Shown here: positions 6,472-29,857 of the stretch, in pieces
Numbering within the stretch: the stretch's first letter is position 1
Layout: each line of letters starts with the position of its first letter
Origin: Planctomycetaceae bacterium
Lineage (GTDB): Bacteria > Planctomycetota > Planctomycetia > Pirellulales > Pirellulaceae
Assembly (NCBI GenBank): GCA_002724245.1
Contig: PBOG01000158.1
Coordinates: 1 to 40,290, forward strand
Length of the DNA: 40,290 nt
Direction: 5' to 3'
Program-made: the position numbers and the translations under genes
The notes under the pieces: generated by a model
Told to the model about the DNA's origin: nothing
What the model saw: only the letters and a program-made list of their open reading frames with translations
Databases searched by the model: none

Positions 6472-7245
6472 TTACTCGAACACGTATTGACGACCTGTCT
6501 CTACCATTTCAATGGCATCGCCCAAAGCGGCTCGGAGTTCATCCCGCACTTCATCAAGCAAGTTGGGCTTTGTGTGGTTGATGATGATACGCGGCATGCT
6601 TCCTTTCCAATCGTGGGCAAACCGCTCGATATCACGAGGAATCATATGCTTGCTTTTCTCGGCGAGCCATTGCATCCGATTAGGAAAGGTGCATTCAAGA
6701 AACAAGCCCGTCAGATGTGGCAGACGTTCCAACGCCTGCACCCAGGACAAACTGTACTCGGTATCAGAAATAAATCCGACCACGGCCTTAGAATCAGCCA
6801 ACAGGAAACCATAAGCAGGAACTGTATGGCTCAATGTCAATGCCGTGATCTCGACCTGATGACAGGTGCGCGAAGAGCCCTCACGAATTGGCTCAAATCG
6901 GCAAAACCGAACCCCTTCCTCCCGCTCGATACGCAACAGGTCAGGCCAAATCAGGTCATTGAAAAAATGGGTCTGTAACGCATCGATGCATGCCTCATGT
7001 GCATAAATCGTCGGCAAAACCTCACTCGCCGGACTGCGTTGTTCCAGAAAAAAAGGAAGCGACGTCACGTGGTCCATGTGGCAGTGCGACAGAAATATAT
7101 CTGACACTCTATCCTGCTCCACCGCCGGCACCATTGTACCTAGCGAGCCCGCATCAATAGCAACGCATTGATTGACAATATATGTCGATAGCAATTGCCC
7201 TTCTTTTGTCACAGCATCGCCGGAACGAATCACATCGACATCCAT
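6472..7245 (-). CDS. Metallo-hydrolase, class II cyclic-nucleotide phosphodiesterase-like
   Basis: A 257-residue metallo-beta-lactamase-fold protein with a full set of metal ligands: H54xH56xD58H59 in SHCHMDHVTSLP, His140 (LSHTVPAYGF), Asp161 (SDTEYS) and His224 (NHTKP). The motif around HxHxDH and the overall length resemble class II cAMP phosphodiesterases (yeast PDE1, bacterial CpdP), which hydrolyse 3',5'-cyclic nucleotides. There is no signal peptide, so it is cytoplasmic. It starts 58 bases downstream of a class III nucleotide cyclase gene on the same strand, which supports a role in degrading that cyclase's product. Other MBL-fold hydrolases (for example RNase Z-like ones) remain possible. 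Confidence 0.75.
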   Translation of the reverse strand: MDVDVIRSGDAVTKEGQLLSTYIVNQCVAIDAGSLGTMVPAVEQDRVSDIFLSHCHMDHVTSLPFFLEQRSPASEVLPTIYAHEACIDALQTHFFNDLIWPDLLRIEREEGVRFCRFEPIREGSSRTCHQVEITALTLSHTVPAYGFLLADSKAVVGFISDTEYSLSWVQALERLPHLTGLFLECTFPNRMQWLAEKSKHMIPRDIERFAHDWKGSMPRIIINHTKPNLLDEVRDELRAALGDAIEMVETGRQYVFE

Positions 7246-7303: not shown

Positions 7304-9139
7304 CTATTTCTTGCTGAGTTGTATTGCGCCCTGCCAACCGTCAGGTGGCCGAGACCCAAATTGCGAGACGTGATCAAACAAGAACCTCGATGGACTGTCT
7401 TTATCCACCCATGGCTGCAGCCTTTGACGCACCTCCTGCCATGCACCTTCCTTGAAGGACCCCAAGGCTTGCTGATAACCTTCAATCACCTCGGGCTCCG
7501 CTGACATACTCTCGTCCTCTGGAGTCACTAACGTGAATACATCGATGACATCTTCCATGCCAGCCGGTTGCAGAGTGGCAAGCTGTCGAACTGGCTTATC
7601 GGAAAACATCTCTGCCCCAGCGAGCTGCTCGGCGGTTTGCTTGTCGAAGCACATTTTACATCCGAATAACTTAGTAATCCCTTCAAGGCGGGCCCCCTGA
7701 TTCACAATAGGCCCAAAGACTCCAATCTTCGCCTGGTGCTTTGTACCAATTTGCCCCGCCAAACCAATTCCCGTGGCAATCCCAATTCCCAAGCTCAACC
7801 CGGCGAATCTTTGCTGCTTAGAAGCGGCTGTCGCATTGGAGAAGTCCTTCAGAATCGACAACGCTGCCACGACGGCAGACATTCCTGGCGCTGTATCGCC
7901 AATCGGCCAACCCCAGAAACCTAACGCCGCATCACCTTGGAAATCTGCAATCGCACCATCCGCATCAATAATGCCACGAGTCATCACCCCTAGAGCGTCC
8001 CGGATTCTCTTGTAGAGTGACATCAGATCGTCTTGATATTCCTCACTAATCCGCGAGAACCCTCGCAAATCGCAAAACAGCACGGCAAGCAGCGACTCAC
8101 ATGGATCGAGCGCAACACCATCAGTCGAAAGAACTTTTTCGGCGATACTTGGCGACAAAAAACTAGACAACGCGGACTTTCGCTCATGGAACGCATTTGC
8201 CGTTGTGATCGATCGCAAGAACTCACCAACAAGCTCAATGAAACGACAATTTGAAGCAAGTTGCTCTTGCTGTTCTATCATTCCGGGTCCCGAAATATAG
8301 ATGCACCAGCAAACCTCTGCTGCCTGGACAGGCACTGCAATTGCCCACCCCAGACCATCGGTGATAGTCGCCTGAAGTCCTGCCTGATCTGACATACCCC
8401 AGCTGTGCACTGTAGTCTGACCCGAATTGAGCGCCGCGGCTGTCACACGTTTGCTAGGGCGGAACTCGCTCGTCAGTGTGGCTCGCACATCAAAAGAAAA
8501 ATGGATCGGAACATAATCACCCCAGGGAGAACCTTCGTTATCGTCACTCGCCTTCTTGTGAAACTCCATGACTGCCGCCGCATCGGCACTCGGCTGTGTC
8601 TGCAGCAGCAACTCTGCCAGACGTTCGGCTAATTCCAGCCCTCCTTTGGCAGATTCCACAAGTGCCGGAATCTTGGCTAGTGCCGTCAGTTGTTTTTCTG
8701 GAGCATCGGGAGCAGCCGCTCGCAGCTGCCGCGCCGTAAACGTGATTTGGCTCGCCAGCTGAGGTTCTTCCTCATTCTCCCCTTGGCCACCAAACATTTC
8801 TGAATGCAACGCTTGGCGCATGAGCGAAAACCGCGTTGCTCCGATCTCAAATTCATCCGTCGAGGAAAGTGTCAACTCTCTTACAACTGAGCCCTGGAAC
8901 ACAATCGAATTTCGCGCATTGGGATTACAGCGAATGGTAACCGAATCACGGTCAGACAATATGGTCCCATGGTGCCGCGAAATGGCACCATCCCATCTGA
9001 GGGCAAGCTCGTTGTCAGGAGATCGTCCAAAGCTGACTGCCTTGCCGACAACCGGACGAGTCTTCGTAACATTACTTCCAGTACCGTCTTTGGCGACAAG
9101 TATAAAACTACTGTGCTCCATAACCTCCCGCCAATTCAC
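7304..9139 (-). CDS. FHA-GAF-like class III adenylate/guanylate cyclase
   Basis: A 611-residue soluble protein (alternative start at codon 7, base 9121). Residues ~10-105 form an FHA phosphothreonine-binding domain (GRSPDN at 38-43, SRHH at 54-57). Residues ~170-315 look like a GAF-type sensor. Residues ~345-500 are a class III cyclase catalytic domain. Both metal-binding aspartates are present (D357 in FCDLRGFS, D403 in QGD), as are the transition-state Asn480 and Arg484 in VNQGARLE. The two positions that normally hold the adenine-selecting Lys and Asp are Asp399 and Pro477, so substrate choice cannot be assumed. The C-terminal ~70 residues look helical. The phosphodiesterase-like gene follows on the same strand. 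FHA suggests control by Ser/Thr kinases. Confidence 0.88.
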   Translation of the reverse strand: MNWREVMEHSSFILVAKDGTGSNVTKTRPVVGKAVSFGRSPDNELALRWDGAISRHHGTILSDRDSVTIRCNPNARNSIVFQGSVVRELTLSSTDEFEIGATRFSLMRQALHSEMFGGQGENEEEPQLASQITFTARQLRAAAPDAPEKQLTALAKIPALVESAKGGLELAERLAELLLQTQPSADAAAVMEFHKKASDDNEGSPWGDYVPIHFSFDVRATLTSEFRPSKRVTAAALNSGQTTVHSWGMSDQAGLQATITDGLGWAIAVPVQAAEVCWCIYISGPGMIEQQEQLASNCRFIELVGEFLRSITTANAFHERKSALSSFLSPSIAEKVLSTDGVALDPCESLLAVLFCDLRGFSRISEEYQDDLMSLYKRIRDALGVMTRGIIDADGAIADFQGDAALGFWGWPIGDTAPGMSAVVAALSILKDFSNATAASKQQRFAGLSLGIGIATGIGLAGQIGTKHQAKIGVFGPIVNQGARLEGITKLFGCKMCFDKQTAEQLAGAEMFSDKPVRQLATLQPAGMEDVIDVFTLVTPEDESMSAEPEVIEGYQQALGSFKEGAWQEVRQRLQPWVDKDSPSRFLFDHVSQFGSRPPDGWQGAIQLSKK

Positions 9140-9167
9140 TCACAAGTTGAACTGTGGTTTCCCAGCT

Positions 9168-9261
9168 GAGTCGTGGACGCTTTACTGGCATCAGCTACCA
9201 ATCACCAGGGCACACGAACAGACAGCTTACAACATACCACATACACCGGCGTCCACGACTC
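9168..9261 (-). repeat. 13-bp perfect inverted repeat in the cyclase leader
   Basis: GAGTCGTGGACGC at 9168-9180 is the exact reverse complement of 9249-9261, with 68 bases between the arms. It lies between the acetolactate-synthase-like stop and the cyclase start, ending about 28 bases before the latter. It may be a terminator or attenuator stem, an operator pair, or the ends of a tiny element. Confidence 0.6.
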
Positions 9262-9383
9262 GCAGTCGATTGGCGGTGCTACCTCTCCAGTGATGCCTGA
9301 ATTCCGTCAACACTCGACAGCAGTGCAACCGACGAAATAGACCGACACTCTGAGACACTCACCGCAGACATGCCCCGCTGGGC

Positions 9384-11024
9384 CTAGAGCGTCTGGCTTA
9401 GCGCCTTGATCTCCCGATTGAGAATCCGGTCGTTATTGGAATAGTCCATGGGCACATCAATGACGTGCACTCCGTTGACATGATTACATTCCTTTACCAG
9501 TGGTAACAAGTCTTCGGTGCGATCAACGCGGTGCCCTTTTGCACCATAGCTGTCTGCGTATGCAACAAAATCCGGATTTCCATAGTCGAGTCCAAAATGC
9601 TCAAATCCCATTTTCGCTTGTTTCCACTTGATCATCCCGTACGCATCGTCGCGGAGGATCAGGATGGTCAAGTCCATGTTCAAACGCACCGCTGTCTCCA
9701 GCTCCTGTGAGTTCATCATGAAACCTCCGTCACCACAGACAGCGATCACTTCGCGTTCAGGAAAAATCAGCTTGGATGCCATCGCTGCCGGCAAACCCGC
9801 ACCCATTGTCGCAAGTGCATTGTCGAGGAGTACCGTATTTGGTTCATGCGCCGGATAATTTCGAGCAAACCAGATTTTATACACACCGTTATCTAGCGAA
9901 AGAATTCCGTCAGAAGGCATCGCAGCACGCACATCGGCAACTAATCTCTGGGGCAGTATCGGGAAATCCGTCGACTCCGCATCTTGCTTGATGTGGTTGT
10001 CGACATGCTGTTTCACTTTCGTGAAGAACGAAAAATCCCACTTCTGTTGTGGCGCAACTGCCTCGTTGATTCGCCAGATACTGTTGGCAATATCACCCAC
10101 CACCTCTACCTGCGGAAAATACACCGGGTCTACCTTGGCGGAAAAAAAGTTAACGTGAATGACTTGCACGCCCCCATCGCGCATAAAGAACGGCGGCTTT
10201 TCTATGACATCGTGACCGACATTGATAATCAGATCGGCGTGATCAGTCGCACGGTGAATGAAGTCCCCGGTCGACAACGCAGCGTTACCAAGAAATGACT
10301 CATCACGTTCATCGACGACACCTTTACCCATTTGTGTCGTCACAACGGGTATCTTGGTATTCGCGACAAATTGCCTCAGCATGCGGCTCGTCAACTTACG
10401 ATTCGCCGCTGCTCCAATCACCAACAGCGGCCGCTCCGCTCGTTCAATCATCTCGACAGCACGTTGAAGTGACTTCAGTTCCGCCACCGGCCGTCGCACC
10501 ATACTCTTGGTGAGTAATGGCGCGTCGCTGTCCTCCGCGGCAATATCTTCCGGCAGTTCAAGGTGGACCGCACCTGGCCGCTCCTCTTCGCCAATGCGAA
10601 ATGCCTCTCGAACCCGAGAGGGAATATTATCCGCACCCGTTAACTGCTCAGTAAATTTCGTGATCGGCTGCATCATATCGACGACATTGATGATCTGGAA
10701 TTGGCCCTGCTTACTCTGCTTGATTGGCTTTTGGCCAGTCAACATAAACATGGGCATGCCTCCCAGTTGCGCATAGGCAGCCGCGGTCACCAGGTTTGTC
10801 GCGCCGGGACCAAGTGTCGCCATACAAACACCCGCCTTCCCGGTCAGTCGCCCATACGTCGCTGCCATAAACCCGGCACCCTGTTCATGACGTGTAAGCA
10901 CGAGTTTGATCGACGAACTGCGCAGGGAGTTGAGAATATCCAAATTCTCTTCGCCAGGGACGCCAAAAATAAACTCAACACCCTCACGTTCCAGGACACG
11001 GACGAACAGGTCTGATGCTTTCAC
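9384..11024 (-). CDS. ThDP enzyme, acetolactate synthase large-subunit type
   Basis: A 546-residue thiamine-diphosphate enzyme. It has the catalytic Glu47 in TRHEQGA, the LGPGATN segment (71-77), and the cofactor motif GDGGF followed about 25 residues later by DDAYGM. The sequence is collinear over its full length with acetolactate synthase (AHAS/AlsS-like) proteins, which join two pyruvates into 2-acetolactate with loss of CO2. No small regulatory subunit (ilvN) is adjacent, so it may be a stand-alone or catabolic type, or a relative with another 2-oxo acid substrate. Its start lies 18 bases after the stop of the 11-haem cytochrome gene, so it is probably the last gene of the redox transcript. 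Why a carboligase belongs with that cluster is not evident. Confidence 0.85.
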   Translation of the reverse strand: MKASDLFVRVLEREGVEFIFGVPGEENLDILNSLRSSSIKLVLTRHEQGAGFMAATYGRLTGKAGVCMATLGPGATNLVTAAAYAQLGGMPMFMLTGQKPIKQSKQGQFQIINVVDMMQPITKFTEQLTGADNIPSRVREAFRIGEEERPGAVHLELPEDIAAEDSDAPLLTKSMVRRPVAELKSLQRAVEMIERAERPLLVIGAAANRKLTSRMLRQFVANTKIPVVTTQMGKGVVDERDESFLGNAALSTGDFIHRATDHADLIINVGHDVIEKPPFFMRDGGVQVIHVNFFSAKVDPVYFPQVEVVGDIANSIWRINEAVAPQQKWDFSFFTKVKQHVDNHIKQDAESTDFPILPQRLVADVRAAMPSDGILSLDNGVYKIWFARNYPAHEPNTVLLDNALATMGAGLPAAMASKLIFPEREVIAVCGDGGFMMNSQELETAVRLNMDLTILILRDDAYGMIKWKQAKMGFEHFGLDYGNPDFVAYADSYGAKGHRVDRTEDLLPLVKECNHVNGVHVIDVPMDYSNNDRILNREIKALSQTL

Positions 11025-11042: not shown

Positions 11043-13361
11043 TCATGGCAATTCGTGGACATCCATCTGAGGAGAAACACTCGGCGCCACACGACCAACT
11101 TTAGCGGCTGGTTGCACACGCCGCTGACGTACGTGGTATTTGTGGCATGTCAAACAATCGTTACGTGAAACCGAGTTGTTGTGACACTTGGCACAATTCG
11201 ACGTGGGCAAATCACGAAAGTCGCTGGAAAAATGGCCAGAACCAAGCACCGGCGCCCAATCTCGATCAAAGAACTCGGGTCGATAGCGGCCTGACTGGCT
11301 CTTGATCGTATGACACTGCATGCACTCTTCGCCTTCGGTTGCGTGACAAGCATTACAGGCGTCCTGTGCTATTTCCCTCATATGGGGCGAGTGCGTGAAA
11401 TGGGTGAAAGGACGAATGGCAGAGTCATCACGTGTGCTCAACCAGTTGATGACGACATGATCACCTGAAAGGTCAATCGAGTGGCACTTGACGCACCGCC
11501 CACTCGCTATCGGAGACGTGACCTCAGCAAACAACCGGCCAATCGCCTGTTTCACATCCGACTGCTCGCCAGCAGGCAGGGCTGCTGCTGCATTCCTGAT
11601 GTCAATCACCGTCTCCAACCATCTCTTCATCGTGAGATCAGCATGGCCAATCGCACTATAGCGTACAGTCAGATCAGAATTAACGGTGCTCCACCCAGCC
11701 AAGTCATCCGAGATCGACTCGGACACGACCTGTGGCTTGTAGAACTCCTGTACCACAACTTCACCGCTATCCAGTTCATGGCTTAATTCAGGGAACCAGA
11801 CTGCCTCTGCAAACTCTGCTGACTGCCTGGCTTCCAGCAGCAATTCGACCATTTGCTGCACGACAGCTGATGGTGCCACGCGGCCAATCGTCGCATTTAA
11901 CCGTTTCTGCAATCGCCCCTGATCCCCGGTAGCGATTTCATGCAAGACCTGCCTGGTTGCGACTGCCAGACTTGCTACTGACTCCGCTTGTTCAGGCGTC
12001 ATATCTGATAAGTCCAAGAGATCAACCCCTGCCAAGGAATCCCGTCGCTGCAAATACCCCTGGTCAGCCAGCAACAATAAGTTCATTACCGCTGGCATTT
12101 CTCCTTGAGGTCCGAAGCCGTCCTGATTCAAGGGATGCTTGGGCCAAACCCCTAGCGGTAGCTGCTCGTCAGCCAAAGCAACAGAGTCTATTCTAGGAAC
12201 CGCCACAATCGTCATACCCTCAACCAAAGCATCCTTGATTTGACTAGAGTGGCAACTGCTACACGTTTCATCAAATCCAAGAACCAGCATCTTCCGTCCG
12301 GCTGTATCCAATTTGTGGCACGTCAGACAGGAAGCTGGCTTTTTCCCGCCAGGCATGATCCTTGTAAAGGAATCGAAATGCTGGTTGTAGTGTGTGACAT
12401 GGTCAAAATAGATACGTGTCCTCCGCTGGTACGGATAATCTGTAAACTCTGGATGGCCATGCTCTAAACTATGAAACGTGTTTTGATGACAAGATTGACA
12501 TTGCTCATTTGAAATTCCGGTCAAGTCGTGTCCGCGGCCTCTATGTTCCTGGTGGCAGGTGCCACAGGCAAGTTTCTCCACTCCCTGATGTGGCCTGCCA
12601 AAGATCATCTGTGCGGTTCCAATCAGCACCTGGGAACCCGCTGATTCCCTGTCGGTTGCCCGTTTTGTCAGGCTCACAAGATGCGCCTGACGAAGCCCGT
12701 GTGCGTTCAAAGGCTCTGCTCCCAGGTCACCGTGACATGCAAGACATTTTTGTTCGCTCTGCTGATCGCTCCGCTCCGAGGCCGGGCCGCCCGACAATGC
12801 GCGGTGCACCCAATCAGACAAGGTTCCTGCGCCGGCCAGATGACACGCCTTGCAGCTACTGGCGGCATGCGCCGATGTGAGCGCACCGGGCGACACCACG
12901 TCTTCACGTGAGGGACCCGCGATCAAGGCCAGCAAGCCTCCCACCACTAAAGATGTGGTAGTCAATGTCAGGACGCGCCGCTGCGCCCACACGCTCCGCC
13001 GAGGCCGGCATACGTTCTGCTGCTGTGAACACTGTCCGTCAGCCAATGGCCCCACTATACATTGTCCACGTGTGCAGCCCCACGTACCGGCCTTCTTGGC
13101 AGGTGCGCATTGGGCCGGCAAGTGGCAACAATTCCCGTCTGCATCGGGCCCCGCATCACAGCGACTGGAAAGCAACGACGCGTTATTGCAGTAGTACCGA
13201 TCACCTTCCCGATATGGCTGGCATACTGCTCCGCACTTTCCTCCTGCCGACGGCCCTAATGCGCATGCGGTACCTTCGCACGCGCGACCACAAATCCACG
13301 GGTGATTGGGCCGCTCATATTCGCTGCTGTCAAAATCAAAGACCTGCCGCGCTTTGCTCAA
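11043..13361 (-). CDS. Membrane-anchored 11-haem cytochrome c with Cys-rich N-terminus
   Basis: A 772-residue protein. Residues 24-118 contain 14 cysteines and three copies of the pattern C-x2-G-P-x-A-x-G-x-C (33-43, 68-78, 101-111). One membrane helix spans about 130-149, preceded by RPRRSVWAQRR, which predicts the Cys-rich part in the cytoplasm and the rest in the periplasm. Eleven CxxCH haem c sites begin at 170, 206, 266, 288, 345, 367, 623, 669, 680, 723 and 736; the gap 370-620 is haem-free and helical. The start is TTG at 13361, overlapping the upstream TGA as TTGA, with AGGGG seven bases before it. Together with the dihaem b protein and the Fe-S protein upstream it likely forms a membrane electron-transfer complex. 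The electron acceptor is unknown. Confidence 0.88.
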   Translation of the reverse strand: MSKARQVFDFDSSEYERPNHPWICGRACEGTACALGPSAGGKCGAVCQPYREGDRYYCNNASLLSSRCDAGPDADGNCCHLPAQCAPAKKAGTWGCTRGQCIVGPLADGQCSQQQNVCRPRRSVWAQRRVLTLTTTSLVVGGLLALIAGPSREDVVSPGALTSAHAASSCKACHLAGAGTLSDWVHRALSGGPASERSDQQSEQKCLACHGDLGAEPLNAHGLRQAHLVSLTKRATDRESAGSQVLIGTAQMIFGRPHQGVEKLACGTCHQEHRGRGHDLTGISNEQCQSCHQNTFHSLEHGHPEFTDYPYQRRTRIYFDHVTHYNQHFDSFTRIMPGGKKPASCLTCHKLDTAGRKMLVLGFDETCSSCHSSQIKDALVEGMTIVAVPRIDSVALADEQLPLGVWPKHPLNQDGFGPQGEMPAVMNLLLLADQGYLQRRDSLAGVDLLDLSDMTPEQAESVASLAVATRQVLHEIATGDQGRLQKRLNATIGRVAPSAVVQQMVELLLEARQSAEFAEAVWFPELSHELDSGEVVVQEFYKPQVVSESISDDLAGWSTVNSDLTVRYSAIGHADLTMKRWLETVIDIRNAAAALPAGEQSDVKQAIGRLFAEVTSPIASGRCVKCHSIDLSGDHVVINWLSTRDDSAIRPFTHFTHSPHMREIAQDACNACHATEGEECMQCHTIKSQSGRYRPEFFDRDWAPVLGSGHFSSDFRDLPTSNCAKCHNNSVSRNDCLTCHKYHVRQRRVQPAAKVGRVAPSVSPQMDVHELP

Positions 13362-14200
13362 TGAACTGCCCCTGAGAAAGCGTAAACAATCAGAACGTGA
13401 AATATAGCCATCACTACCAATGCGTAAGTCAACGGAACGTGTATGAAAAGCCAGACCTTGAGAACCAGCTGGTGTGAAAAGTGAAAATCCAAATCACTCT
13501 TCACTCTGACATACTCCGCAAGTGAGTTCATCGCCTGCTTTTCTCGTTCGTTCAGGTACCTTCCATGCAGCTCCATTTTCCTTATGAGCTCCAACTCACC
13601 GCGTTGGGACCGGATCATGTGTTGCCAGAAATAGCGATGGCGTTCAAAGAATGTGCGCAGTTCCTCGGAATAAAACTCGGGAATCGCAGTGGATTCCGTC
13701 TCTGTCAGACAGGCAAGAACCTCACGCTCTGCCGCAACTTGTATTCTGCGCAACACTCTTGGAATCCGCGCATAGAACACTTCTTCACCACGTTCCGACA
13801 GTCGCCTTGGAAACACCCGACTTATCCAAAGACCGATCATCCCACTCGCAGCTACGACCAGATAGGCAAATGCAAGCCCCACCTCCAAATATCCGTTTGG
13901 AACGCGCCAGCCGACATGCGTACCGAACACTGCAATGCTCAGCAACCCGAGAAAGACATGAACCTGTAGCCAGGTGGACGACGATCCGAGTGGCAAAAAC
14001 GAAATACGTTTCCGGAGATTGTAGGATGCGAGCACAGCCACCAGTGCAAACAATACCCAGCCTGAGACGAGCGCCGTGCGTTGAAGCGTTATCGACAAGA
14101 GCAAATCGATTGCCCCTGCCAGCAACAGCAGCACAATCAACGCCACACTGTAGCGTCGCCGTCGCACCGAGAACGGAATGAGCGTCATTGATTGTGCCAT
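13358..14200 (-). CDS. b-type dihaem membrane cytochrome
   Basis: A 280-residue integral membrane protein with about five helices (17-37, 43-60, 80-98, 105-126, 247-275). Helix 3 has His81 and His95 and helix 5 has His254 and His268. Both pairs are 14 residues apart, the usual spacing for two stacked b haems in a four-helix bundle. A charged cytoplasmic stretch (~128-240) separates helices 4 and 5. It would pass electrons between the quinone pool and the adjacent Fe-S and multihaem c proteins. An alternative start at codon 5 (base 14188) gives an ATGA overlap with the upstream stop; the downstream gene overlaps by 4 bases too, so expression is tightly coupled. I do not recognise a named family. 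Confidence 0.78.
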   Translation of the reverse strand: MAQSMTLIPFSVRRRRYSVALIVLLLLAGAIDLLLSITLQRTALVSGWVLFALVAVLASYNLRKRISFLPLGSSSTWLQVHVFLGLLSIAVFGTHVGWRVPNGYLEVGLAFAYLVVAASGMIGLWISRVFPRRLSERGEEVFYARIPRVLRRIQVAAEREVLACLTETESTAIPEFYSEELRTFFERHRYFWQHMIRSQRGELELIRKMELHGRYLNEREKQAMNSLAEYVRVKSDLDFHFSHQLVLKVWLFIHVPLTYALVVMAIFHVLIVYAFSGAVH

Positions 14201-15912
14201 TGCGCCAAAGTCTCTACATCATTCATATCGATCCGGATCATCGCATCGTGTGGACATGCTCGCTCACACGCCGGACCACCTTTTTGATCAACACATAAAT
14301 CGCACTTGGTCGCTTTCGTAATGGGCGCTCGCGACGCAACCGTTCGATCGCGCAAGAATTGGCCCCGATGATCACGAATTTCGACCATGCGAATCGCATC
14401 ATACGGACAATGCTTGGAACACGAACTGCAACCGATGCAAGTCTCATCATTGATATCCACTTCACCATCATCAAGCTTGCGACTGATCGCACCCGTGGGG
14501 CACTCGATCATGCAAACGGGATCACGACAATGCATGCAAGCGTTCGCCACCATAATTCCATTATGGATCGGTCCATTGCGCAAGAACCGTGGGTTATTAT
14601 CATGGGACGCAGCGCAGGCTCTCACACAATCATCACACCGAGTACAACGATCCATGTCGATTAACATGGTGGCGGTTCCATTCACGAACCGATTTCCCAC
14701 CAAGAACTCAATAAATCCCTGATCGATATCCCTGTACGCAGCAAGCTTTCGACTCCGCTCCTCGCTGGGCGTCTTGCGATGCCACGGCGAGTTGGGGTGT
14801 TTGAGTATGAACTTCTCTACTAAATGTGCAGGCACCACAACCGCCATCAGAAAACCTATGGCCCGTAGCGAATGTTGAAACGGTACTGGTTGCGAACTAC
14901 CGTGATTGGCAACAATTTCACTCAATCCAAATTCCTGTCCCGGACCTAAGTACGAAATCGTACGTTCGCCATGGTGAAACTGATGGCTAACGCGTGCCAG
15001 CCCACCACGAATGATAATGATCTCGTTGGCGTAGTCTCCTTCGCGCACCATCAGATGTTCATCCGCAAAGCCGTCAGCCGCGGACTCTTCAGCCATCTTC
15101 CTGAACGACTGTGCCCGTCCATAATCACCAAATACCTTTAGTTCAACACCGTCCGCCAATTCACTCAGAGATTCACCCTGCTCCTCCCTTAAATGCTCAA
15201 ACATTGGCGACGCTTCCAGAAACGCTCGCAAAGATCGCTCGCGAAACCTCTGGTCAATCAACGCCTGAATACCCGCGTCGCGGCGCATGATGTCGCGTAG
15301 TCCCTGCCAGCGGACTTCGATCAGGCGCCCGGGCTCTACCGCAAACAGGGTCGCGGTTCGCCGGGTTCGTCCGAGCGCGGCAATCTCTCCGAAAAATTGA
15401 CCCGGCTCAAGAATCGTGTGTGCGTATTTGTCGAGAACTCCAGCGACATCTTGCAAGTAAATCCGTGTCGCACGACCAGAGCCTCGCTGCTTCACCGCAG
15501 ACCTGGATCCTGCGAAACTGAATCGATCCCGAAATTCAGGAAACCGATGATTCATGAACAACTGCGTGAGCGCTTGAAGAAAACCTTTCGGGCGATCTTG
15601 CCGGCGTCCCAGTAGTTCTGGTGGCATACCAGATTCAGGGGGCTCAATTTCCACAGCGATCTGCCCCGACACGATAAAGAAGGCCGAGTTACCCCAGTCT
15701 CCTTCACGCACGACAATATCCCCGCGTTGGACGTCCACAACTCGAGCATGCGCCCGCAGCGTTTTCCGAAAACCTGGTGATTTCCGGTATTTGGGATCTA
15801 ACGTTTCGAACGCGGGCGCGGCCACCAACTCATCAACGATGGCATCATCCATGCCTTCGTCAAAGGCGACATCCGCCTGCGTCTTGCGACGCACATCAGG
15901 ATCGGTTGTCAT
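14185..15912 (-). CDS. Cyclic-nucleotide-binding domains fused to a four-cluster [4Fe-4S] ferredoxin
   Basis: A 575-residue soluble protein. Residues ~40-215 are a cyclic-nucleotide-binding (CNB) domain. It has the phosphate-binding cassette FGEIAAL...RRTAT with Gly175, Glu176 and Arg185, the residues that hold the ribose and cyclic phosphate in CRP/PKA-type pockets; an insertion (~90-150) interrupts the beta roll. Residues ~235-370 form a second CNB-like domain without those residues. Residues 415-560 contain 16 cysteines in four ferredoxin motifs (C423/426/429/433, C459/462/467/471, C492/495/498/502, C537/540/549/553), like HybA/DmsB/NrfC electron-transfer subunits. There is no signal peptide. 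The next gene encodes the dihaem b protein. The natural reading is an Fe-S subunit whose electron flow or assembly is controlled by a cyclic nucleotide. Confidence 0.9.
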   Translation of the reverse strand: MTTDPDVRRKTQADVAFDEGMDDAIVDELVAAPAFETLDPKYRKSPGFRKTLRAHARVVDVQRGDIVVREGDWGNSAFFIVSGQIAVEIEPPESGMPPELLGRRQDRPKGFLQALTQLFMNHRFPEFRDRFSFAGSRSAVKQRGSGRATRIYLQDVAGVLDKYAHTILEPGQFFGEIAALGRTRRTATLFAVEPGRLIEVRWQGLRDIMRRDAGIQALIDQRFRERSLRAFLEASPMFEHLREEQGESLSELADGVELKVFGDYGRAQSFRKMAEESAADGFADEHLMVREGDYANEIIIIRGGLARVSHQFHHGERTISYLGPGQEFGLSEIVANHGSSQPVPFQHSLRAIGFLMAVVVPAHLVEKFILKHPNSPWHRKTPSEERSRKLAAYRDIDQGFIEFLVGNRFVNGTATMLIDMDRCTRCDDCVRACAASHDNNPRFLRNGPIHNGIMVANACMHCRDPVCMIECPTGAISRKLDDGEVDINDETCIGCSSCSKHCPYDAIRMVEIRDHRGQFLRDRTVASRAPITKATKCDLCVDQKGGPACERACPHDAMIRIDMNDVETLAQWHNQ

Positions 15913-15923
15913 TCGCGGTGCAG

Positions 15924-17201
15924 CTATTCGTCATCAGGAACTTCGGGTTCATCCAAGGCATCCAATCGATTGCCATTGTGCTTAGCTACAAACTTCATGG
16001 CGGCCTTCGCGACCGCATCAGCAGCCTCAATACATGCCGTTCGATCGTCTTCTAACACGAGCTCTTCGTCATCCAGCCTGGTGTAGATCTCTTCGAGTTC
16101 TTCCAGCAGTGCCGCAAGCAACGGCAACCCTTCTTCATCTTCATCTTCATCTTCATCTTCATCTTCATCTTCTTCTTCATCCTCTTCTTCATTCTCTTCG
16201 TCGGCTTCATCCTCTTCGTCGGCTTCGACGACGACTTCCAGAACATCTTCGAGCAGCAATTCATAACCATCGACAACACGATCAGACATGCTCTCGAAAA
16301 AATCACCGTCTTCATCTTTCACCTGTGCCAGGTAGCGCAGACTGACTTCCAGATCTGCCATTGCTCCCACGACAAACATCAACCTCTTGTGACCCGCAGT
16401 GGTGCGACCTTTGCCATTCCACAACGGGTCGACCCAGAGTGTGGCCGCCTCGGCGTTAACCTTCTGGTCAAGGTGGAAGTTGTGCCGGACTTCACCAAGT
16501 GATTTGGTTGCAAATTCGAAATTCTGGGTGGCAGCCTTATGACCTCCATCATTCACTAAAGCTTCATCACCAATGATGTGACACGAATAACATGTCTTGG
16601 CAAGTTGATAGAGATGCTCAGAGCGCACCTGCCCCGCCTTGTCACACTTCACTTTCCGTTCCAGGTAATGAATCTCGGTTTCTGCCACACGTGAACTTCC
16701 CTGCTCGCCGTAGACTGCATGTGCATTCAGCCAGCCAGCTGCGCCTCCAGACGCACTGTGACAAGCTTCACATGAAACAGCGGGAAGGACGCGAGCCTCT
16801 CCACTCTCCAGCGTCTGCCGGGTCGCATGGCATTGCACACACAGCGAATTGGGGGCCGTGATGTCAGCCGCCTTGATACCAAGTGCTTCTGCGTATTTTC
16901 TTGCATCCTTGTCAGTACGGAGCGTATCGAAAGCACCTGCAGCATGCTTGGATTTTTTCCAGCGTGCATACTCAGAACGGTGGCAATCCAGACACTGCGT
17001 TTCTCCAACAACCCGCGAGGCAACAGTTTCCTGTAGTTTTCTCCCGTGTTCCCCACGGGTACGATCCCCCTCCGACTGACCTTGAATATCACTTGCTTGC
17101 GTCTCCAATAGCGGAACGCTATTGAGACACACAGAGACAGTGAAAACCACGGCAAGGCAACTGAAAACTGCCAGCAACAACCGGCAAGCGGCAACAACCA
17201 T
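15924..17201 (-). CDS. Tetrahaem cytochrome c (c554-like) with a poly-acidic region
   Basis: About 425 residues from MVVAACRLLL; a longer start at 17270 is possible, but the shorter one begins directly with an export signal. Four CxxCH sites start at 70, 121, 144 and 204 and follow the cytochrome c554/c-prime pattern with spaced extra His ligands (for example WKKSKHAAGAF after haem 1). Residues ~327-357 are nearly all Asp and Glu, encoded by a hexanucleotide repeat. The protein is a clear paralogue of the next gene upstream: both share GWL-x-H-x-x-YG after haem 3 and GEVRHNF further on. It ends 11 bases before the Fe-S gene, within the same operon. Probable role: periplasmic electron shuttle. 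The acidic tail could bind a basic partner. Confidence 0.88.
   Translation of the reverse strand: MVVAACRLLLAVFSCLAVVFTVSVCLNSVPLLETQASDIQGQSEGDRTRGEHGRKLQETVASRVVGETQCLDCHRSEYARWKKSKHAAGAFDTLRTDKDARKYAEALGIKAADITAPNSLCVQCHATRQTLESGEARVLPAVSCEACHSASGGAAGWLNAHAVYGEQGSSRVAETEIHYLERKVKCDKAGQVRSEHLYQLAKTCYSCHIIGDEALVNDGGHKAATQNFEFATKSLGEVRHNFHLDQKVNAEAATLWVDPLWNGKGRTTAGHKRLMFVVGAMADLEVSLRYLAQVKDEDGDFFESMSDRVVDGYELLLEDVLEVVVEADEEDEADEENEEEDEEEDEDEDEDEDEDEEGLPLLAALLEELEEIYTRLDDEELVLEDDRTACIEAADAVAKAAMKFVAKHNGNRLDALDEPEVPDDE
16134..16169 (-). repeat. Hexanucleotide microsatellite coding for Asp-Glu
   Basis: Six perfect copies of ttcatc on the plus strand (Asp-Glu codons on the coding strand), flanked by imperfect ttc-rich copies from about 16130 to 16225. 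Gain or loss of units would keep the frame and change the length of the acidic stretch. Confidence 0.9.
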
Positions 17202-17319
17202 AATCCACCAATCCAATGTTTCAGATTCCGGACACCCAATCTGCCAGGAGTACGGTGCTGTCAACGACAATGGCAGACTAGAAATCTCTGCGATTCAATT
17301 CGGGCAGGTCTCACTTGAA

Positions 17320-18453
17320 TCACCCCCCAAAAGCCTTACCTTTCGCTTTGCGGGGAGGCTTGACACTCGCCGGCAAACCATTGGCATCCTTGTATTTCTC
17401 AACAAACGCGTCTGCGACAGCCTGCACTTCATCAGCTACTCCACTGTAGAGTTTCTTGTCACCAGCCTTCGTCTTCTTGAGCGTGCTCTTCTTGATCTTG
17501 TTTTTCTTCATAATGTCAAGAATGGGTGCCAGGTCGTCGATCTCAGCATCTTCTACCTCGTCGAGGGCATCATCAATGCGATCATTCGCCAGATCACCGA
17601 GCGTACCTCGCTTGGCTGACGTCACGCCTGCCCGAATCCTCAAGCTGAGTACCAAATCCGCAAGCTGGCCAGCCAGGAACATCAGCTGCTTGCGCCCCTT
17701 GGGAGTACGCCCTTCACCAGTGGCCAACCACAGACTGGGAACCTCTGCGTTTTCTTTTGGGTTCAATAGAAAGTTGTGGCGAACTTCCCCCTGCGCCCAT
17801 TCGACAAACTCAAACTTGGTACTACTCGGATGGCCAGCGGCAATGAGCTTCTCATCTGGCACGATATGACACTGCAAACAGTTGCTGGCAATGGCCAACG
17901 CATCTTCTGCACGGTTCATCCCGGCCTTCTGAGTAGCTGCTTTTCGACTTGCCAAATGATCGGCAGACTCGCTTTCACGTTGTTTGAGTAGTGCGGCCAA
18001 AGTGTCCGCTGCGCCCTGTCCGTAGTCACTGTGAACCGCAAGCCAACCGCCGTCTCCGCCAGCTCCACCATGGCACGATTCGCAGGAATTACCTTTGGCA
18101 ATTATCAAATTCCCCGTCGCCTTCTGATGCGTCCCATGGCACCTGGTACAGGTCGATTTTTCGCTCTTGATATCGGCTGCGGAGATTCCTAGTTTCCGGG
18201 CAAAATCGGAGGCCTTGGGATCATCGAGCAAATCCCAGGCCTTTTTCCCATGCGCGGAACCTTGCCAGGCGGTTAACTCAGCCGCGTGACATTTACTGCA
18301 AGCATCACGCCCAATCACTTTTGTCGCATCAATCAGCTGCTGAGAATAAACGGAAGCACCGCCGACCAATGCCCATACCAGGCCGCAACCAGCCAAACAA
18401 ACACCACGTGCTCGCCACCACGCATAGTTGCCGAAAAATCGGATACGTTGCAT
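17320..18453 (-). CDS. Tetrahaem cytochrome c (c554-like) with a basic C-terminal region
   Basis: A 377-residue exported protein with a signal-anchor or signal peptide (~15-37, ending ASVYSQQ). Four CxxCH sites start at 52, 102, 124 and 192, in the same arrangement as the downstream paralogue and like cytochrome c554/c-prime. After the haem domain comes a helical region, then a Lys-rich stretch (KKNKIKKSTLKKTK) and a basic end (PPRKAKGKAFGG). The two paralogues therefore differ mainly in the charge of the tail. The gene lies between the flavoprotein reductase and the acidic cytochrome, with spacers of about 160 and 120 bases. The haem content is certain; the redox partner is inferred from context. 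Confidence 0.88.
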   Translation of the reverse strand: MQRIRFFGNYAWWRARGVCLAGCGLVWALVGGASVYSQQLIDATKVIGRDACSKCHAAELTAWQGSAHGKKAWDLLDDPKASDFARKLGISAADIKSEKSTCTRCHGTHQKATGNLIIAKGNSCESCHGGAGGDGGWLAVHSDYGQGAADTLAALLKQRESESADHLASRKAATQKAGMNRAEDALAIASNCLQCHIVPDEKLIAAGHPSSTKFEFVEWAQGEVRHNFLLNPKENAEVPSLWLATGEGRTPKGRKQLMFLAGQLADLVLSLRIRAGVTSAKRGTLGDLANDRIDDALDEVEDAEIDDLAPILDIMKKNKIKKSTLKKTKAGDKKLYSGVADEVQAVADAFVEKYKDANGLPASVKPPRKAKGKAFGG

Positions 18454-18616: not shown

Positions 18617-19909
18617 TTATGCATCAATCACCAAATCTCCATCGGGCCCAGCGACACAGGCCAAGCCACAACCCGACTCGATATCACAATCGGGATCAGA
18701 GCCGTAGCTAACACTCCCCTTTTTGATCGCAACTTTGCACGTGCCACAACCTCCTGTCCGACAACCAGACTCAATCTGTACGTCGTTGGCTTCGGCCAAC
18801 TCAAGTAAACTCAACGCATTGCCTGTCTCCCAGACCACATTTTTCCCAGACCGGGAGAAAAACACTGTGACATTTCCCTCTTTGTCTGGTGCGGACTTGG
18901 AGTCAACCGAGGACATTGACTTCCTGGACTTTAATGACGCCGGACCAAAAGCTTCCGTGAAAATATGCTTCGCAGGGACACCCCAATCACCAAGTTCTGA
19001 CCCAAGGGATCGCATAAATTCAGGTGGCCCACACAAGAAATATCGGTGGTTGCTCGTCTCAACCGTTTTCCTGATTACGTCAATCGTCACACGACCAGCA
19101 ACATCATAATCACGTCCTTTGACATCGTGTCCCGCACGTGGGTTGCTATAGCACGTTACTACTTGAATGTTATCGTGATTCTCTGCCAATTCCTGCAACT
19201 CGGTTTTGAACGCGTGCTCTCTCCCGTTACGAATTCCGTAAAACAATGTCGTCTGCCGGGCACTACCACTAGCCGCAATGGCCTTGAGCATACTAGCCAT
19301 TGGCGTGATCCCCACGCCGCCAGCAATCAAGATAGCCGAAGACTTTGCATGGGGATCAACGAAGAAATGGCCCGACGGCGCTCGCACGTCGAGCAGATCA
19401 CCTTCCCGTATGTGATCATGAAAATAGTTCGACACCAGACCGGGCGGAACGTTTGAAGAATCATCCGGCGCCGGCACACGCTTGATCGACACCCGATAAC
19501 TATCTGGCCTGGGTCCATCTGAGAGCGAATAACACCGAATGGCAGGTTTCTCTAGTCCCGGCACGTCCAACTGAAAAGTCAAAAACTGCCCAGGTTTGAA
19601 TGTCGGCAACGGCTTTCCATCATGTGGCTCTAGACAAAATGAACAAGTTCCCTCGGATTCTTCCACCCGTTGCTTGACAACAAACTTACGGCATCCATTC
19701 CATGCATTTGCACTTTGCAGCTCGCGACGCGCCCTGACAGCTTCAATGCGTTCCAACATGAACAAATCGGAAAGCTTGTTTTGTTTGACCTGACGCGTCA
19801 AAGACAACAGGGACTCGACTATTACGGTGACCAGCTGAACTGCAACCAGAATGACGAGGCCTGAGCCAATATAGATCGCCGCGGTATCCATTACAGGAAT
19901 TGGCTCCAT
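18617..19909 (-). CDS. Membrane-anchored FAD/NAD(P)H and 2Fe-2S reductase
   Basis: About 430 residues from MEPIPVMDTAA; starts at 19981 and 19891 are also open. One N-terminal membrane helix (~10-32) is followed by a ferredoxin-NADP-reductase module: flavin-binding RCYS, an NAD(P)-binding GGVGITPM segment and a late CGPPEFM. The C-terminal ~90 residues are a plant-type [2Fe-2S] ferredoxin with C383-x4-C388-x2-C391 and a fourth Cys near 418. The architecture matches NAD(P)H-oxidising reductases such as the NqrF and phenol-hydroxylase reductase groups. It is the first gene of the redox run, so it could feed NAD(P)H electrons to, or receive them from, the cytochromes downstream. The helix would keep it at the membrane. 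The direction of flow is unknown. Confidence 0.88.
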   Translation of the reverse strand: MEPIPVMDTAAIYIGSGLVILVAVQLVTVIVESLLSLTRQVKQNKLSDLFMLERIEAVRARRELQSANAWNGCRKFVVKQRVEESEGTCSFCLEPHDGKPLPTFKPGQFLTFQLDVPGLEKPAIRCYSLSDGPRPDSYRVSIKRVPAPDDSSNVPPGLVSNYFHDHIREGDLLDVRAPSGHFFVDPHAKSSAILIAGGVGITPMASMLKAIAASGSARQTTLFYGIRNGREHAFKTELQELAENHDNIQVVTCYSNPRAGHDVKGRDYDVAGRVTIDVIRKTVETSNHRYFLCGPPEFMRSLGSELGDWGVPAKHIFTEAFGPASLKSRKSMSSVDSKSAPDKEGNVTVFFSRSGKNVVWETGNALSLLELAEANDVQIESGCRTGGCGTCKVAIKKGSVSYGSDPDCDIESGCGLACVAGPDGDLVIDA

Positions 19910-20330
19910 CTGCAATAACGCAGTGTGGCTGAGACGCTTAACCTGGTGCTGCCACGCTGACTTGGCCGAACGACCAGCCAACGCCGCAAGTCTACGATCT
20001 GTTTGCGGATTTCACGCAGATTGTTGCAGATGGACTAGAGATGTCAATGCAATTCGCTAAAGACCCAGCTTACGCTAGTACTGCTGGCAAACAAGCATTC
20101 TGGGAGCGCCGATCATTGAAAGAAGTCCCAGACTTGCACGGATCGTCTTGCGAAACAAACAAGCAGTCTATGCTAGCCTGACGCGGCTTCAAGTGCCCCT
20201 CTGGTTCGCTCAAGTATTTACGGGTCGATTCCAGTCATGCAGCAGATCGCCAGACGCCTCCTAATGTTCCGTGTGCGGACTTGGATAGAAACTCTGTCGC
20301 CACGGAAGGCCTCCGACCGACAGCAAATGA
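19910..20330. other. Upstream region of the redox operon; possible short coding relic
   Basis: About 420 bases lie between the reductase start (-) and the dehydrogenase relic (+). The promoter of the redox operon should be here, but I cannot point to convincing -35/-10 boxes. On the plus strand 19942-20181 is open for about 80 codons without an early ATG. Its residue usage looks protein-like (for example VYDLFADFTQIVADG), yet I do not recognise a family. It may be another gene relic. Confidence 0.3.
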
Positions 20331-21062: not shown

Positions 21063-22685
21063 TTAGAACCGGACCAAAATCTCAAAGCGAGCCCCCGGAA
21101 CCGCGTTGCGGTGCTCAGGTTTGACAACAAACGCGTCCCATATGACGACAACGTGTTGATTCATCGCTGACTGGTAACGAACAGCACTTCCAATCGCACC
21201 ATCCGAATCACCTTTTGTTTCTTTCTGACCACCAATTTCAAAAATCACTTGCTGCTTCGTGTGGTCAAAAAACATCTGATAACCAAGGCTGGTTCCTGCA
21301 CGATTGTCAGTGCGGATTCCAATCGGCGCTCCAATCCGCCCCAAACCCGGCGCAGAAAACAACACGCCCGTTTGGCCTAACGCGCCTCCCGCCAGTGGCC
21401 CACGCGTGGGTGATGTAAACTGATCAATCGCCCAGAACGAATTAAGGTAAATCAGATCTTCGGTGTGGTGGGGTGTCCAGGAGATTCTGGAAAACAGCAG
21501 TTCGCCCTGATCCGCATAATCTGTTGGAGCAGTGGTCGGATAAGACGCCAGAAAATGGAGTGACGTATTGTACGTGTTGTGAAGCAAATTGTGCCGTTGG
21601 ATCGCACTGACACCAAACGCAATGACATCACCAATGGCCTCATCTTGACTATGGACATAGGCAACATCGAGATTGACCGTTGCTTCACGAAAATCGCTTT
21701 CGGTAAGAAACGCCACCAGCTGTGAAGAATTGTCGAGTTGATTTCCAGCTACGCGAGCGCTGTTGCGATGCAACTGGTCCCAGGCATAAATCCCGCTCAT
21801 GCGCAGATTGAGGTTATCTTCCGTGACAACTGAATTACGCGTCACCGTAAAGGCATCGATTCGATCTTCCGCGATGAGCAATCCCTGCTGAGCTGACAAG
21901 GGCATACGTCCGACCGAAAACCCGATGTCGTTGCCACCGATATCTTCCGGATCGAGGTCAGGAAATAGTTCGCCAAAGTCCCCCTCAAAAAAGAGCGTCT
22001 GCATATCCGCATTCCAGCCATCGATACTGGAAGCACGGAAGTCCTGTGTATTGAAGGTCCGCCCACTGGTGGTCTCTTCATCGAACGGACGCATGCCGAC
22101 CAGTACACGTTCCGTCCCGGTGAGATTGAGTTGTCCGAACAAGTCCAGACGATTGGCCCACTCCGCAACGGGACTTGTGGAATCGGCGTACTGCACCCCA
22201 GAACGCAAGTCACCAAACACCCACAACGCGGGACGCCAAATGGCACCTGTAGGAAGCTCAATTCCCTCGGCTAACGGCCCTGTGCCCAGAAATGCTTCAT
22301 TTAACTCGACCAGAAGTGGCGGACGCTCAGGGACAGGCTGTATTCCAATAGACTCATCAGATAGTGCACTATGCACTTCATCGTGTTCGGCACCAATGAC
22401 GCCTGAAAAGAAGTCCGCGATACCGGGTGCAGGACGTGTTAACATGTCGGGCACTGTTTCAAAGAGACGCGCCACAGGCGGTAGATCCTCATCACCCCCG
22501 CCCCTTCCAGCACTCACCGCAGCGGCATGCTCGGCATCGGACTCGAATAAGCTCGTAGAGCCCGTAGCGGATTGTGAATCAACGACAACCACGTGCTCTT
22601 GCGCTGATCCTTGGTCAACCGTGCAACCAATCAACACCAGAAATACAAGCTGCAATCTGTATCGCTGTTCTAGCTTCTGCCGCAT
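21063..22685 (-). CDS. Outer-membrane beta-barrel protein, porin-like
   Basis: About 540 residues from MRQKLEQRYR (a longer start at 22748 is open). A signal peptide ends near GSAQE; LIGC inside it could act as a lipobox, but a cleaved barrel protein is more likely. The mature part has an N-terminal low-complexity segment, then from about residue 170 alternating polar/aromatic strands typical of barrels, with short turns rich in Gly, Asn and Asp. It ends in FEILVRF, with the terminal Phe that outer-membrane barrels use for insertion. It begins about 70 bases after the stop of the pentahaem cytochrome, probably in one transcript. The role would be to form a pore, or to house a haem wire across the outer membrane. 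No named family is recognised. Confidence 0.68.
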   Translation of the reverse strand: MRQKLEQRYRLQLVFLVLIGCTVDQGSAQEHVVVVDSQSATGSTSLFESDAEHAAAVSAGRGGGDEDLPPVARLFETVPDMLTRPAPGIADFFSGVIGAEHDEVHSALSDESIGIQPVPERPPLLVELNEAFLGTGPLAEGIELPTGAIWRPALWVFGDLRSGVQYADSTSPVAEWANRLDLFGQLNLTGTERVLVGMRPFDEETTSGRTFNTQDFRASSIDGWNADMQTLFFEGDFGELFPDLDPEDIGGNDIGFSVGRMPLSAQQGLLIAEDRIDAFTVTRNSVVTEDNLNLRMSGIYAWDQLHRNSARVAGNQLDNSSQLVAFLTESDFREATVNLDVAYVHSQDEAIGDVIAFGVSAIQRHNLLHNTYNTSLHFLASYPTTAPTDYADQGELLFSRISWTPHHTEDLIYLNSFWAIDQFTSPTRGPLAGGALGQTGVLFSAPGLGRIGAPIGIRTDNRAGTSLGYQMFFDHTKQQVIFEIGGQKETKGDSDGAIGSAVRYQSAMNQHVVVIWDAFVVKPEHRNAVPGARFEILVRF

Positions 22686-22754
22686 TATGAATACCGTCTC
22701 GCTGATTTCGGAATGCAGACACCATCCCAAAATTGGCTGTCGCACCACTTCAGA

Positions 22755-24785: not shown

Positions 24786-25673
24786 CCTGGGTACCACAAG
24801 AACAAGCGCAAACGCGTCTGTCGCTGAAACTGACGCCAAGCCTGCATACGTTCGAAACAACACAACGTAGGGAAAGAGGGTCTCCTGGGTTCAACATCGG
24901 CTGGTGAACGAAAACAAGCCACTCTTAAGGCAATCAGCCCGCATTACTGTCAATAATTCAGAGGAACTAATGCAGATTGGGCGCTCACAGGACCAGCGAC
25001 ACGCCGCACGCAACCCCAATATCCCACAACCCTCCCCCACTTTACCCACTCAACCAAACTGGCTTTTCCGATCTGTGAACCAAAGTTCGCCACGAGCCCG
25101 CCAGTGCTCCTGCATCGCTAGCCTGTGTCTCCGTCCTGCAGCAACCCAATCTTATACCGCGTTGTAATTTGGCACACTCCGCTACACCTCTCGCCTGCAT
25201 CAAATATGGAACAACACTGCACGTGCGATGACTGGTTGGCAAAGAAGCCGCCCAGGCTCGCCATTCTGTACATCGCAAAGAAAACGGTGGACGGTCAAAC
25301 CGACAGTGTAAACACTTGCCAGATTAACACCGTTGCGCAAAAGCTTGCCGCCAATCATGCCAAACCGCACGGGCCACCTCGTCCTTGAACGGCGCGACGG
25401 GGGGCAAACACCAAAGAAGGTTTCTGGGTGCATCTCCGCGATACCATTTAGCGGCACCACCAGGATGACGGCGATAGGGCTGACCTGTCTGAAACCGTGC
25501 CGGTGCCAAGACGTGAGCGCCAGTCGATTAAAAATGACCTGCATCTCGGTCATTCCTACCCTGTGCCCGGACCCTTGCTTTCGCTAACCCAACTTGCCCG
25601 CCGTTTCCTACAGCGGATACGCCTGTCAACCGACTACACCACCACGGTACCTGGCCAAACCAACAACAGGCTG
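24786..25673. other. Long stretch without a recognisable gene
   Basis: Nearly 900 bases between the pentahaem cytochrome start and the DUF1501 stop. Short frames occur on both strands (the longest is about 117 codons, 25200-25553, minus), but none has a signal peptide, a known motif or a plausible start. It may hold the promoter of the cytochrome-porin pair and decayed sequence. Confidence 0.4.
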
Positions 25674-27152: not shown

Positions 27153-27171
27153 GACTGCTCTCCCCACATAC

Positions 27172-29442: not shown

Positions 29443-29857
29443 TTCTTCCAGGGTCACGGCACGTGTCAAATTACATCTGCAAGCATGATACCTGTGAAAG
29501 TCAAACGTAACAAACATCCTGGTGGCCACGCGCCGCCAGGGCGCTAACTTATGTCGTACAGCGTGGTTTCTCGGGAACGCCCTCTGGCGATGCTCGCCGC
29601 GCACCTTCAGCAGCGCAACGGGGATCCCAAACAGCACGATTTTTGAACCGGTCAAGAGCACCGGACCAAGGTGCCGTCGGCATCCTCAAAAACATCGGTT
29701 GGTATTGCTGGCATATCTGCGGGGCTGGCAAATCTGTGCGGTAAGGAAACTACTCAACCCCATCGCGCGCTGACCTTCCGGAAAACAGACACCTTCTATT
29801 TCCACAGCTAGCGCGGCATCGATCAAGAAATCTTTACCCTTGCGACCGGTACATTGC
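29443..29857. other. Intergenic spacer without a recognisable gene
   Basis: About 415 bases between the PVC haem protein stop and the DUF1549/1553 start, both on the minus strand. Only short frames without family resemblance and a few 5-6 bp stems are seen. A promoter for the DUF1549/DUF1501 pair may be here. Confidence 0.4.

Follow-up and report, generated by a model that had tools for sequence, protein, structure and literature searches.

The window analysed here, a stretch of 40,290 nucleotides (positions 1 to 40,290 of contig PBOG01000158.1, forward strand, assembly GCA_002724245.1, from a Planctomycetaceae bacterium), carries a minus-strand gene for a protein of 575 amino acids (aa), P0001, in which two cyclic-nucleotide-binding (CNB) domains and a four-cluster ferredoxin (Fe-S) are joined; we refer to it as the CNB-FeS protein. 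It is made up as follows:

14185-15912, minus strand: CNB-CNB-4x[4Fe-4S] protein, P0001, 575 aa, an open reading frame with an ATG start
15223-15861, minus strand: first CNB domain (CNB-A), residues 18-230, from Pfam, the structure model and VIA-align
15421-15642, minus strand: insertion of about 70 residues in CNB-A, at 91-164
15349-15393, minus strand: phosphate-binding cassette of CNB-A, FGEIAALGRTRRTAT, residues 174-188, conserved in the row counts given below
14773-15222, minus strand: second CNB domain (CNB-B), residues 231-380, with a degenerate cassette, from fold matches to PKG/PKA CNB-B
14227-14670, minus strand: polyferredoxin with 16 Cys, residues 415-562

The presence of CNB and Fe-S modules in one chain is secure. 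The Pfam family cNMP_binding (PF00027) matches two stretches of the protein (80.2 bits, cut-off 27.5), and several Fer4 (4Fe-4S) families match it too. The cassette region of CNB-A reads FFGEIAALGRTRRTAT and includes Gly175, Glu176 and Arg185; in CNB-B the cassette Arg is absent and the Glu is shifted two places on (FGLSE), leaving no Gly-Glu...Arg signature. The 16 cysteines form four ferredoxin groups within residues 423-553. A sequence-only reading of the window had already described an intact CNB cassette with these three residues, a degenerate second CNB domain and 16 Cys in four ferredoxin motifs on the same chain, and all of this is borne out. The same reading had called the Fe-S part HybA/DmsB-like, which holds broadly, for the four-cluster type, but not in detail: its best score is to HydN (73.4 bits, cut-off 260), DmsB gives 62.8 bits (cut-off 214.1), and it falls under the curated cut-off of every NCBIfam family among the matches listed (25 of 58). 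With HmcA (36.5 bits, cut-off 400) and HmcB (34.6 bits, cut-off 420) also below their thresholds, membership of the HydN, DmsB or Hmc families was rejected on these scores. A transcription regulator was rejected as well, Pfam giving no DNA-binding domain in the 575-aa protein.

The family to which this protein belongs is widespread. One genome per species was scanned, which gave 172 stretches coding for a relative; the best 80 of these, being the most similar, were kept, and 60 relatives of the host, searched in addition, yielded more copies. Once three duplicates (L146, L147 and L119) had been removed, 96 distinct main loci remained, 80 from the species scan and 16 from the host relatives, while homologues below 350 bits were handled apart as long variants or fragments. 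According to the record titles, the carriers belong to Planctomycetota, Verrucomicrobia, Alpha- and Gammaproteobacteria, Nitrospinota, SAR324, Zixiibacteriota, Poribacteria, Myxococcota, Holophagae and Hydrogenedentota, among others, and are mostly metagenome-assembled. The alignment has 99 rows (98 homologues and the window protein, some of them duplicates), from which removal of rows above 80% identity left a non-redundant set of 77, window included. In this set Gly175, Glu176 and Arg182 are kept in all 77 rows and Arg185 in 76, Thr186 is found in 56 (Ser in 9) and Glu199 in all 77. The scan that located these loci used six peptide patterns, none of which covers the cassette, although the 80 loci retained were the most similar; the near-invariance of the cassette supports control by a nucleotide. 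It also goes against the refutation that the sequence-only reading had named, homologues in which the cassette Glu and Arg are lost. Even in CNB-B, although its cassette is degenerate, Gly329 and Glu332 are each kept in 75/77 rows, and all 16 ferredoxin cysteines are present in 99/99 aligned rows. The insertion at 91-164 is less conserved than the domain that flanks it (mean majority share 0.43, against 0.59 and 0.65). Outside the usual cassette signature, Arg182 and the stretch E-x-R-W-Q-G-x-R (199-206) are almost invariant; they are a possible interface to the reductase or to the cytochrome b described below.

Modelling of the protein with AlphaFold2 (55 sequences, mean pLDDT 79.2, pTM 0.75) agrees with this assignment, the best Foldseek matches being the tandem CNB domains of PKA-R and PKG. 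In VIA-align, whose list bears mainly on residues 18-396 of the model, CNB-A (18-227) superimposes on the cGMP-bound CNB domain of the M. loti channel (3cl1) with Z 13.3 and a root-mean-square deviation of 1.9 Å over 130 residues (26% identity), and CNB-B reaches Z values of up to 15.6 with the CNB-B domains of PKG and PKA. The fold matches also include two entries of Trypanosoma cruzi PKA-R, 6hyq with guanosine and 6hyi with an inosine-type ligand (its title being incomplete). We consider it likely that CNB-A binds a cyclic nucleotide.

The genes that we assign to one unit occupy the region between 24863 and 6472, are all read from the minus strand and may be co-transcribed. The sequence-only reading had made no mention of the reductase, porin, cyclase and phosphodiesterase among them:

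22755-24863, minus strand: cytochrome with 5 CxxCH motifs; family in 39/96 loci
21063-22748, minus strand: predicted outer-membrane porin with the OprD fold (residues ~170-561), from a structure model; family in 37/96 loci
18617-19981, minus strand: FAD/NAD(P)/2Fe-2S reductase, presumed electron input (Pfam NAD_binding_1, FAD_binding_6, Fer2); family in 74/96 loci
17320-18453, minus strand: cytochrome of the c554 family, 4 CxxCH motifs
15924-17270, minus strand: cytochrome of the c554 family, 4 CxxCH motifs, with an acidic tail
13358-14200, minus strand: cytochrome b-like membrane protein, 280 aa, five helices predicted from hydropathy
11043-13361, minus strand: cytochrome with 11 CxxCH motifs and one predicted helix (130-148)
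9384-11024, minus strand: acetolactate synthase large subunit (PRK08322, 894.5 bits, cut-off 509)
7304-9139, minus strand: FHA domain and class III nucleotidyl cyclase, from Pfam and alignment
6472-7245, minus strand: class II cyclic-nucleotide phosphodiesterase-like metallo-hydrolase (Pfam PDEase_II, 49.7 bits, cut-off 23.7)

The closest partner of the CNB-FeS gene is the cytochrome b-like gene, which overlaps it by 16 nucleotides, as the sequence-only reading had noticed. Pfam and NCBIfam give no match for its product; four histidines (81, 95, 254 and 268) are conserved in it over 91 rows, which fits the dihaem cytochrome b of that reading. In iterated profile searches, whose counts are lower bounds given that many loci end at contig edges, cytochrome b was found in 95/96 distinct loci, the 11-haem family in 91 and c554 in 84. 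In 91 of the 95 loci that leave room for it, cytochrome b directly adjoins the CNB-FeS gene and shares its strand (overlapping it in 76), so that the pairing, which the earlier reading had suggested looking for, is above chance. No molybdenum or hydrogenase catalytic subunit appeared in Pfam or NCBIfam among the operon genes scanned. The 11-haem protein matches the Mtrc-MtrF domain (Pfam, 41.9 bits, cut-off 30), and the AlphaFold model of the barrel protein (28 sequences, mean pLDDT 74.7, the first 140 residues poor) superimposes on the OprD-family porin OpdQ (3t24) with Z 28.9 and 2.7 Å over 321 residues in VIA-align. Taken together, the conserved cassette of genes looks like an electron conduit that runs across both membranes, from NAD(P)H in the cytoplasm to the outer membrane; we infer its direction of flow and its terminal acceptor. 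As to the cytochromes themselves, the tail of the c554-type protein at 15924-17270 is long and rich in Asp and Glu, and residues 1-128 of the 11-haem protein, presumably cytoplasmic and placed ahead of the helix, are Cys-rich with repeated C..GP...G.C units, a region that could hold metal or clusters.

Two neighbouring enzymes would make and remove a ligand for CNB-A. The cyclase of the window has an intact class III catalytic set (metal-binding Asp357 and Asp403, Asn480 and Arg484). Its specificity pair, Asp399/Gly473, differs from the Lys and Thr/Asp of adenylate-type enzymes. Among PDB sequences the cyclase matches best 2w01, an entry that bears the label adenylate cyclase and which we take to be the Synechocystis guanylyl cyclase Cya2. 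The phosphodiesterase-like protein has an HCHMDH motif that fits HxHxDH, and its best PDB sequence match is 4ojv, the yeast-type 3',5'-cyclic-nucleotide phosphodiesterase 1, PDE1 (E 1.9e-8); its six NCBIfam matches are all under cut-off, the best being RNase Z (41.1 bits, cut-off 292.95). Across the family, a cyclase is present at 16/96 distinct loci in the DNA examined and the phosphodiesterase family at 7/96, five of them strong. A PF00211 search of 20 relatives with a copy of the main-type gene (56 cyclases in 142 Mb) placed a cyclase within 10 kb at 10/21 gene loci (G000, G001, G002, G014 twice, G019, G029, G035, G036 and G042; G035 stands for L136, a fragment at a contig edge), where 0.17 were expected (Poisson P ~4e-15); by genus the figures are 7/18 against 0.14 (P ~2e-10). 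The linked cyclases are scattered over different branches of a midpoint-rooted FastTree phylogeny without support values, and their places and strands differ, which suggests that the pairing arose more than once, in a repeated association of a cyclase with the CNB-FeS gene.

The type of cyclase bears on the identity of the ligand. The Asp/Gly pair is found in 19/22 cyclase rows from these loci (17/20 without the duplicates L146 and L147), a set that includes the long-variant loci L137 and L138 and the fragment locus L136, whereas among 42 rows of unlinked cyclases from the same genomes it occurs in 7, with Asp/Thr in 16 and Lys/Thr in 10. Of the two PDB entries compared, 2w01 with Glu/Gly comes closer to this pair than 1wc0 with Lys/Thr, and in cGMP-selective CNB domains a Thr is known at the position following the cassette Arg. 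For these two reasons cGMP is mildly favoured over cAMP as the possible ligand, neither argument being decisive. The host has a second FHA-cyclase-like protein (L148, G000:C203), with the Asp/Thr pair that is seen in 16/42 unlinked rows of the gene-bearing relatives.

More distant relatives show the same CNB-ferredoxin type in other company. In 8/8 of the longer variants examined both CNB domains have the full cassette. On plasmid pMSHV of Sphingobium herbicidovorans a single chain of 825 aa has the order Pyr_redox-CNB-CNB-Fer4, and Gly-Glu-Arg is seen by eye in both of its CNB domains. Next to it are encoded a cytochrome b-like protein (a weak Ni_hydr_CYTB match, 22.1 bits, cut-off 30.1) and then a cytochrome c3 family protein; a metallophosphoesterase follows, whose relatives among the cyclic-nucleotide phosphodiesterases are SpdA (132.6 bits, cut-off 400) and CpdA (78 bits, cut-off 225). 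In two planctomycete variants, L137 and L145, NuoG-like Fer2_4 and Fer4 modules are fused ahead of CNB-CNB-Fer4 (Pfam). A separate reductase, a pyridine-nucleotide oxidoreductase and a NuoG-like module thus all meet the same type of CNB-ferredoxin, which puts the receptor between the electron source and the wire, at the place expected for a gate.

On this basis we think it probable, with some reserve, that a locally made cyclic purine nucleotide bound to CNB-A controls the passage of electrons to cytochrome b. The CNB-FeS protein would serve as the cytoplasmic electron relay in a membrane complex that exports electrons, and would have its cyclic-nucleotide receptor built in. Electrons would pass from NAD(P)H through the FAD/2Fe-2S reductase and the four [4Fe-4S] clusters to the two-haem cytochrome b, and from there through the 11-haem cytochrome to the c554 and 5-haem cytochromes and the porin. 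The cyclase, here downstream on the same strand and with the FHA domain as an input of its own, would make the cyclic purine nucleotide, and the adjacent class II phosphodiesterase-like enzyme would remove it. Binding to the CNB-A cassette would cause a movement, transmitted via CNB-B and the insertion, that controls the docking of the reductase or the distance to the first cluster, and hence electron passage. A more ambitious version of this proposal strikes us as possible but short of likely: in a respiratory or extracellular electron-transfer complex, kinase signalling would act through the FHA-cyclase to make cGMP, and this, bound directly to the Fe-S subunit, would open or close an electron wire spanning both membranes. 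Writer, eraser and receptor would then share one locus, the pairing having been re-invented with different classes of cyclase and phosphodiesterase.

Several observations weigh against nucleotide control, or at least against its generality. No cyclase lies in the DNA examined at 80/96 distinct loci (mostly up to 8-9 kb per side, many contigs ending sooner), and outside Planctomycetota one is found only at L037 (SAR324), L058 (Verrucomicrobia) and L099 (Alphaproteobacteria), the last being weak (119.7 bits) and perhaps due to chance. Nor did a cyclase appear near the gene in two carriers that seem to be cultured, Planctomycetales bacterium ZRK34 (L031, CP050848) and Sphingobium herbicidovorans MH (B6S01_RS18455). 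Both linkage P values assume that genomes or genera are independent, which holds only in part, and the genomes were chosen by the gene but after the cyclase linkage had first been seen. Three linked cyclases (L120, L123 and L132) are without some of the catalytic residues, no Gly-type cyclase is present among the PF00211 matches of 5/20 gene-bearing genomes (G012, G013, G025, G027 and G031), and the idea that Asp/Gly cyclases mark only gene-bearing genomes was rejected, since some relatives that lack a main-type copy have them too. In the L017 homologue His replaces Arg185. Finally, L139 (G021, 7992-10874) has an FHA domain with the same type of polyferredoxin and no CNB domain by Pfam, and the ferredoxin can therefore do without it; a phosphopeptide reader may stand in there for the nucleotide receptor. 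Read at their strongest, L139, the lost cassette of CNB-B and the many loci without a cyclase would make the CNB pair a ligand-free structural relic with an incidental cyclase linkage. We regard this as very improbable: the CNB-A cassette is near-invariant over the 77 rows, the eight longer variants examined have a full cassette in both domains, and the linkage is far above expectation.

The closest competitor leaves the nucleotide on CNB-A and changes what it does there, namely to control assembly of the complex, membrane docking or stability and not electron passage itself. PKA CNB domains work by holding and releasing a partner, and both the insertion and the 199-206 stretch could be docking surfaces; in the fusions, however, a flavin or NuoG-like module stands on the far side of the CNB pair, which puts the CNB domains within a one-chain electron path where docking needs no regulation, and we judge such a role unlikely. 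The sequence-only reading had left room for either outcome, direct control of electron flow or of assembly, by a cyclic nucleotide: the conservation of the cassette, the nearby cyclases and phosphodiesterases and the fusions all speak for nucleotide control, while the sequence does not separate gating from assembly. Rather less probable is that CNB-A, with fold and cassette intact, takes a different anionic ligand, such as c-di-GMP or a linear nucleotide, so that the protein senses metabolism. The T. cruzi PKA-R entries are CNB relatives with changed ligands; against this stand the Gly-Glu-Arg set, kept in nearly all homologues, and the cyclases and phosphodiesterases nearby. The coupling might also run in reverse, the redox state of the clusters altering nucleotide binding, with the electron chain as input and the protein as a reporter or buffer. 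Sequence does not give the direction of coupling, but the modules fused to this protein and its scanned variants are for electron transfer, with no kinase, DNA-binding or cyclase domain among them, and we hold this arrangement to be quite improbable.

Electron gating by a bound nucleotide, the reading that we prefer, would set the CNB-FeS system beside several known ones, from each of which it differs: (i) with the tandem CNB domains of PKA-R and PKG and the M. loti channel domain it has the fold and cassette in common, and with the first two the tandem layout, but its effector is a four-cluster ferredoxin instead of a kinase or channel, and the short form has no CNB-B cassette. (ii) The cAMP-binding acetyltransferases (M. 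tuberculosis Rv0998, 4ava; M. smegmatis, 4orf) and the EAL enzyme Bd1971 (6hq3), which appeared among the matches, likewise join a bacterial CNB domain to a regulated, non-transcriptional effector; these are enzymes of other kinds, whereas here the effector would be the electron relay of a membrane complex. (iii) HydN/HycB/DmsB-type subunits, its closest sequence relatives, have the same four [4Fe-4S] motifs and 16 Cys, yet the CNB-FeS protein is partnered by a four-His cytochrome b and by multihaem cytochromes. (iv) Mtr-type porin-cytochrome conduits have a comparable inner-membrane entry, multihaem cytochromes and outer-membrane barrel (predicted here), and the 11-haem protein adds the Mtrc-MtrF domain match; here electrons would enter through a flavin reductase and a CNB ferredoxin, and the predicted porin has the OprD fold. 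(v) CNB-thioredoxin reductase fusions combine a CNB domain with a flavin oxidoreductase; they are soluble and not known to carry a polyferredoxin. The Sphingobium variant looks like such a flavin module and CNB pair extended by a polyferredoxin.

CNB domains themselves are well known, and what appears to be new is their union with this sort of effector. Among the open-licence PMC papers listed by full-text searches we recognised no description of a CNB-Fe-S electron-transfer protein, which is weak evidence of absence, and the excerpts of PMC1858693 and PMC5459824 describe no such protein. Cyclic nucleotides in bacteria are known above all for effects exerted via transcription factors; a receptor inside the relay subunit would, if our proposal is right, allow the second messenger to alter electron flow directly and rapidly, and the effect could be broad, as the carriers span many phyla. 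Planctomycete cyclases whose specificity pair is not of the adenylate type would find a role in this cluster, which also represents a defined electron chain without an assigned function.

Two further features of the window deserve mention. The acetolactate synthase gene sits between those of the 11-haem cytochrome and the cyclase, and its family occurs near the CNB-FeS gene in 7/80 loci, some of them alphaproteobacterial. Upstream of the cluster, at 25674-33013 on the minus strand, lie DUF1501, PSCyt2/PSD1 and DUF7133/HEAT/cytochrome c genes, which we take to be a common planctomycete set.

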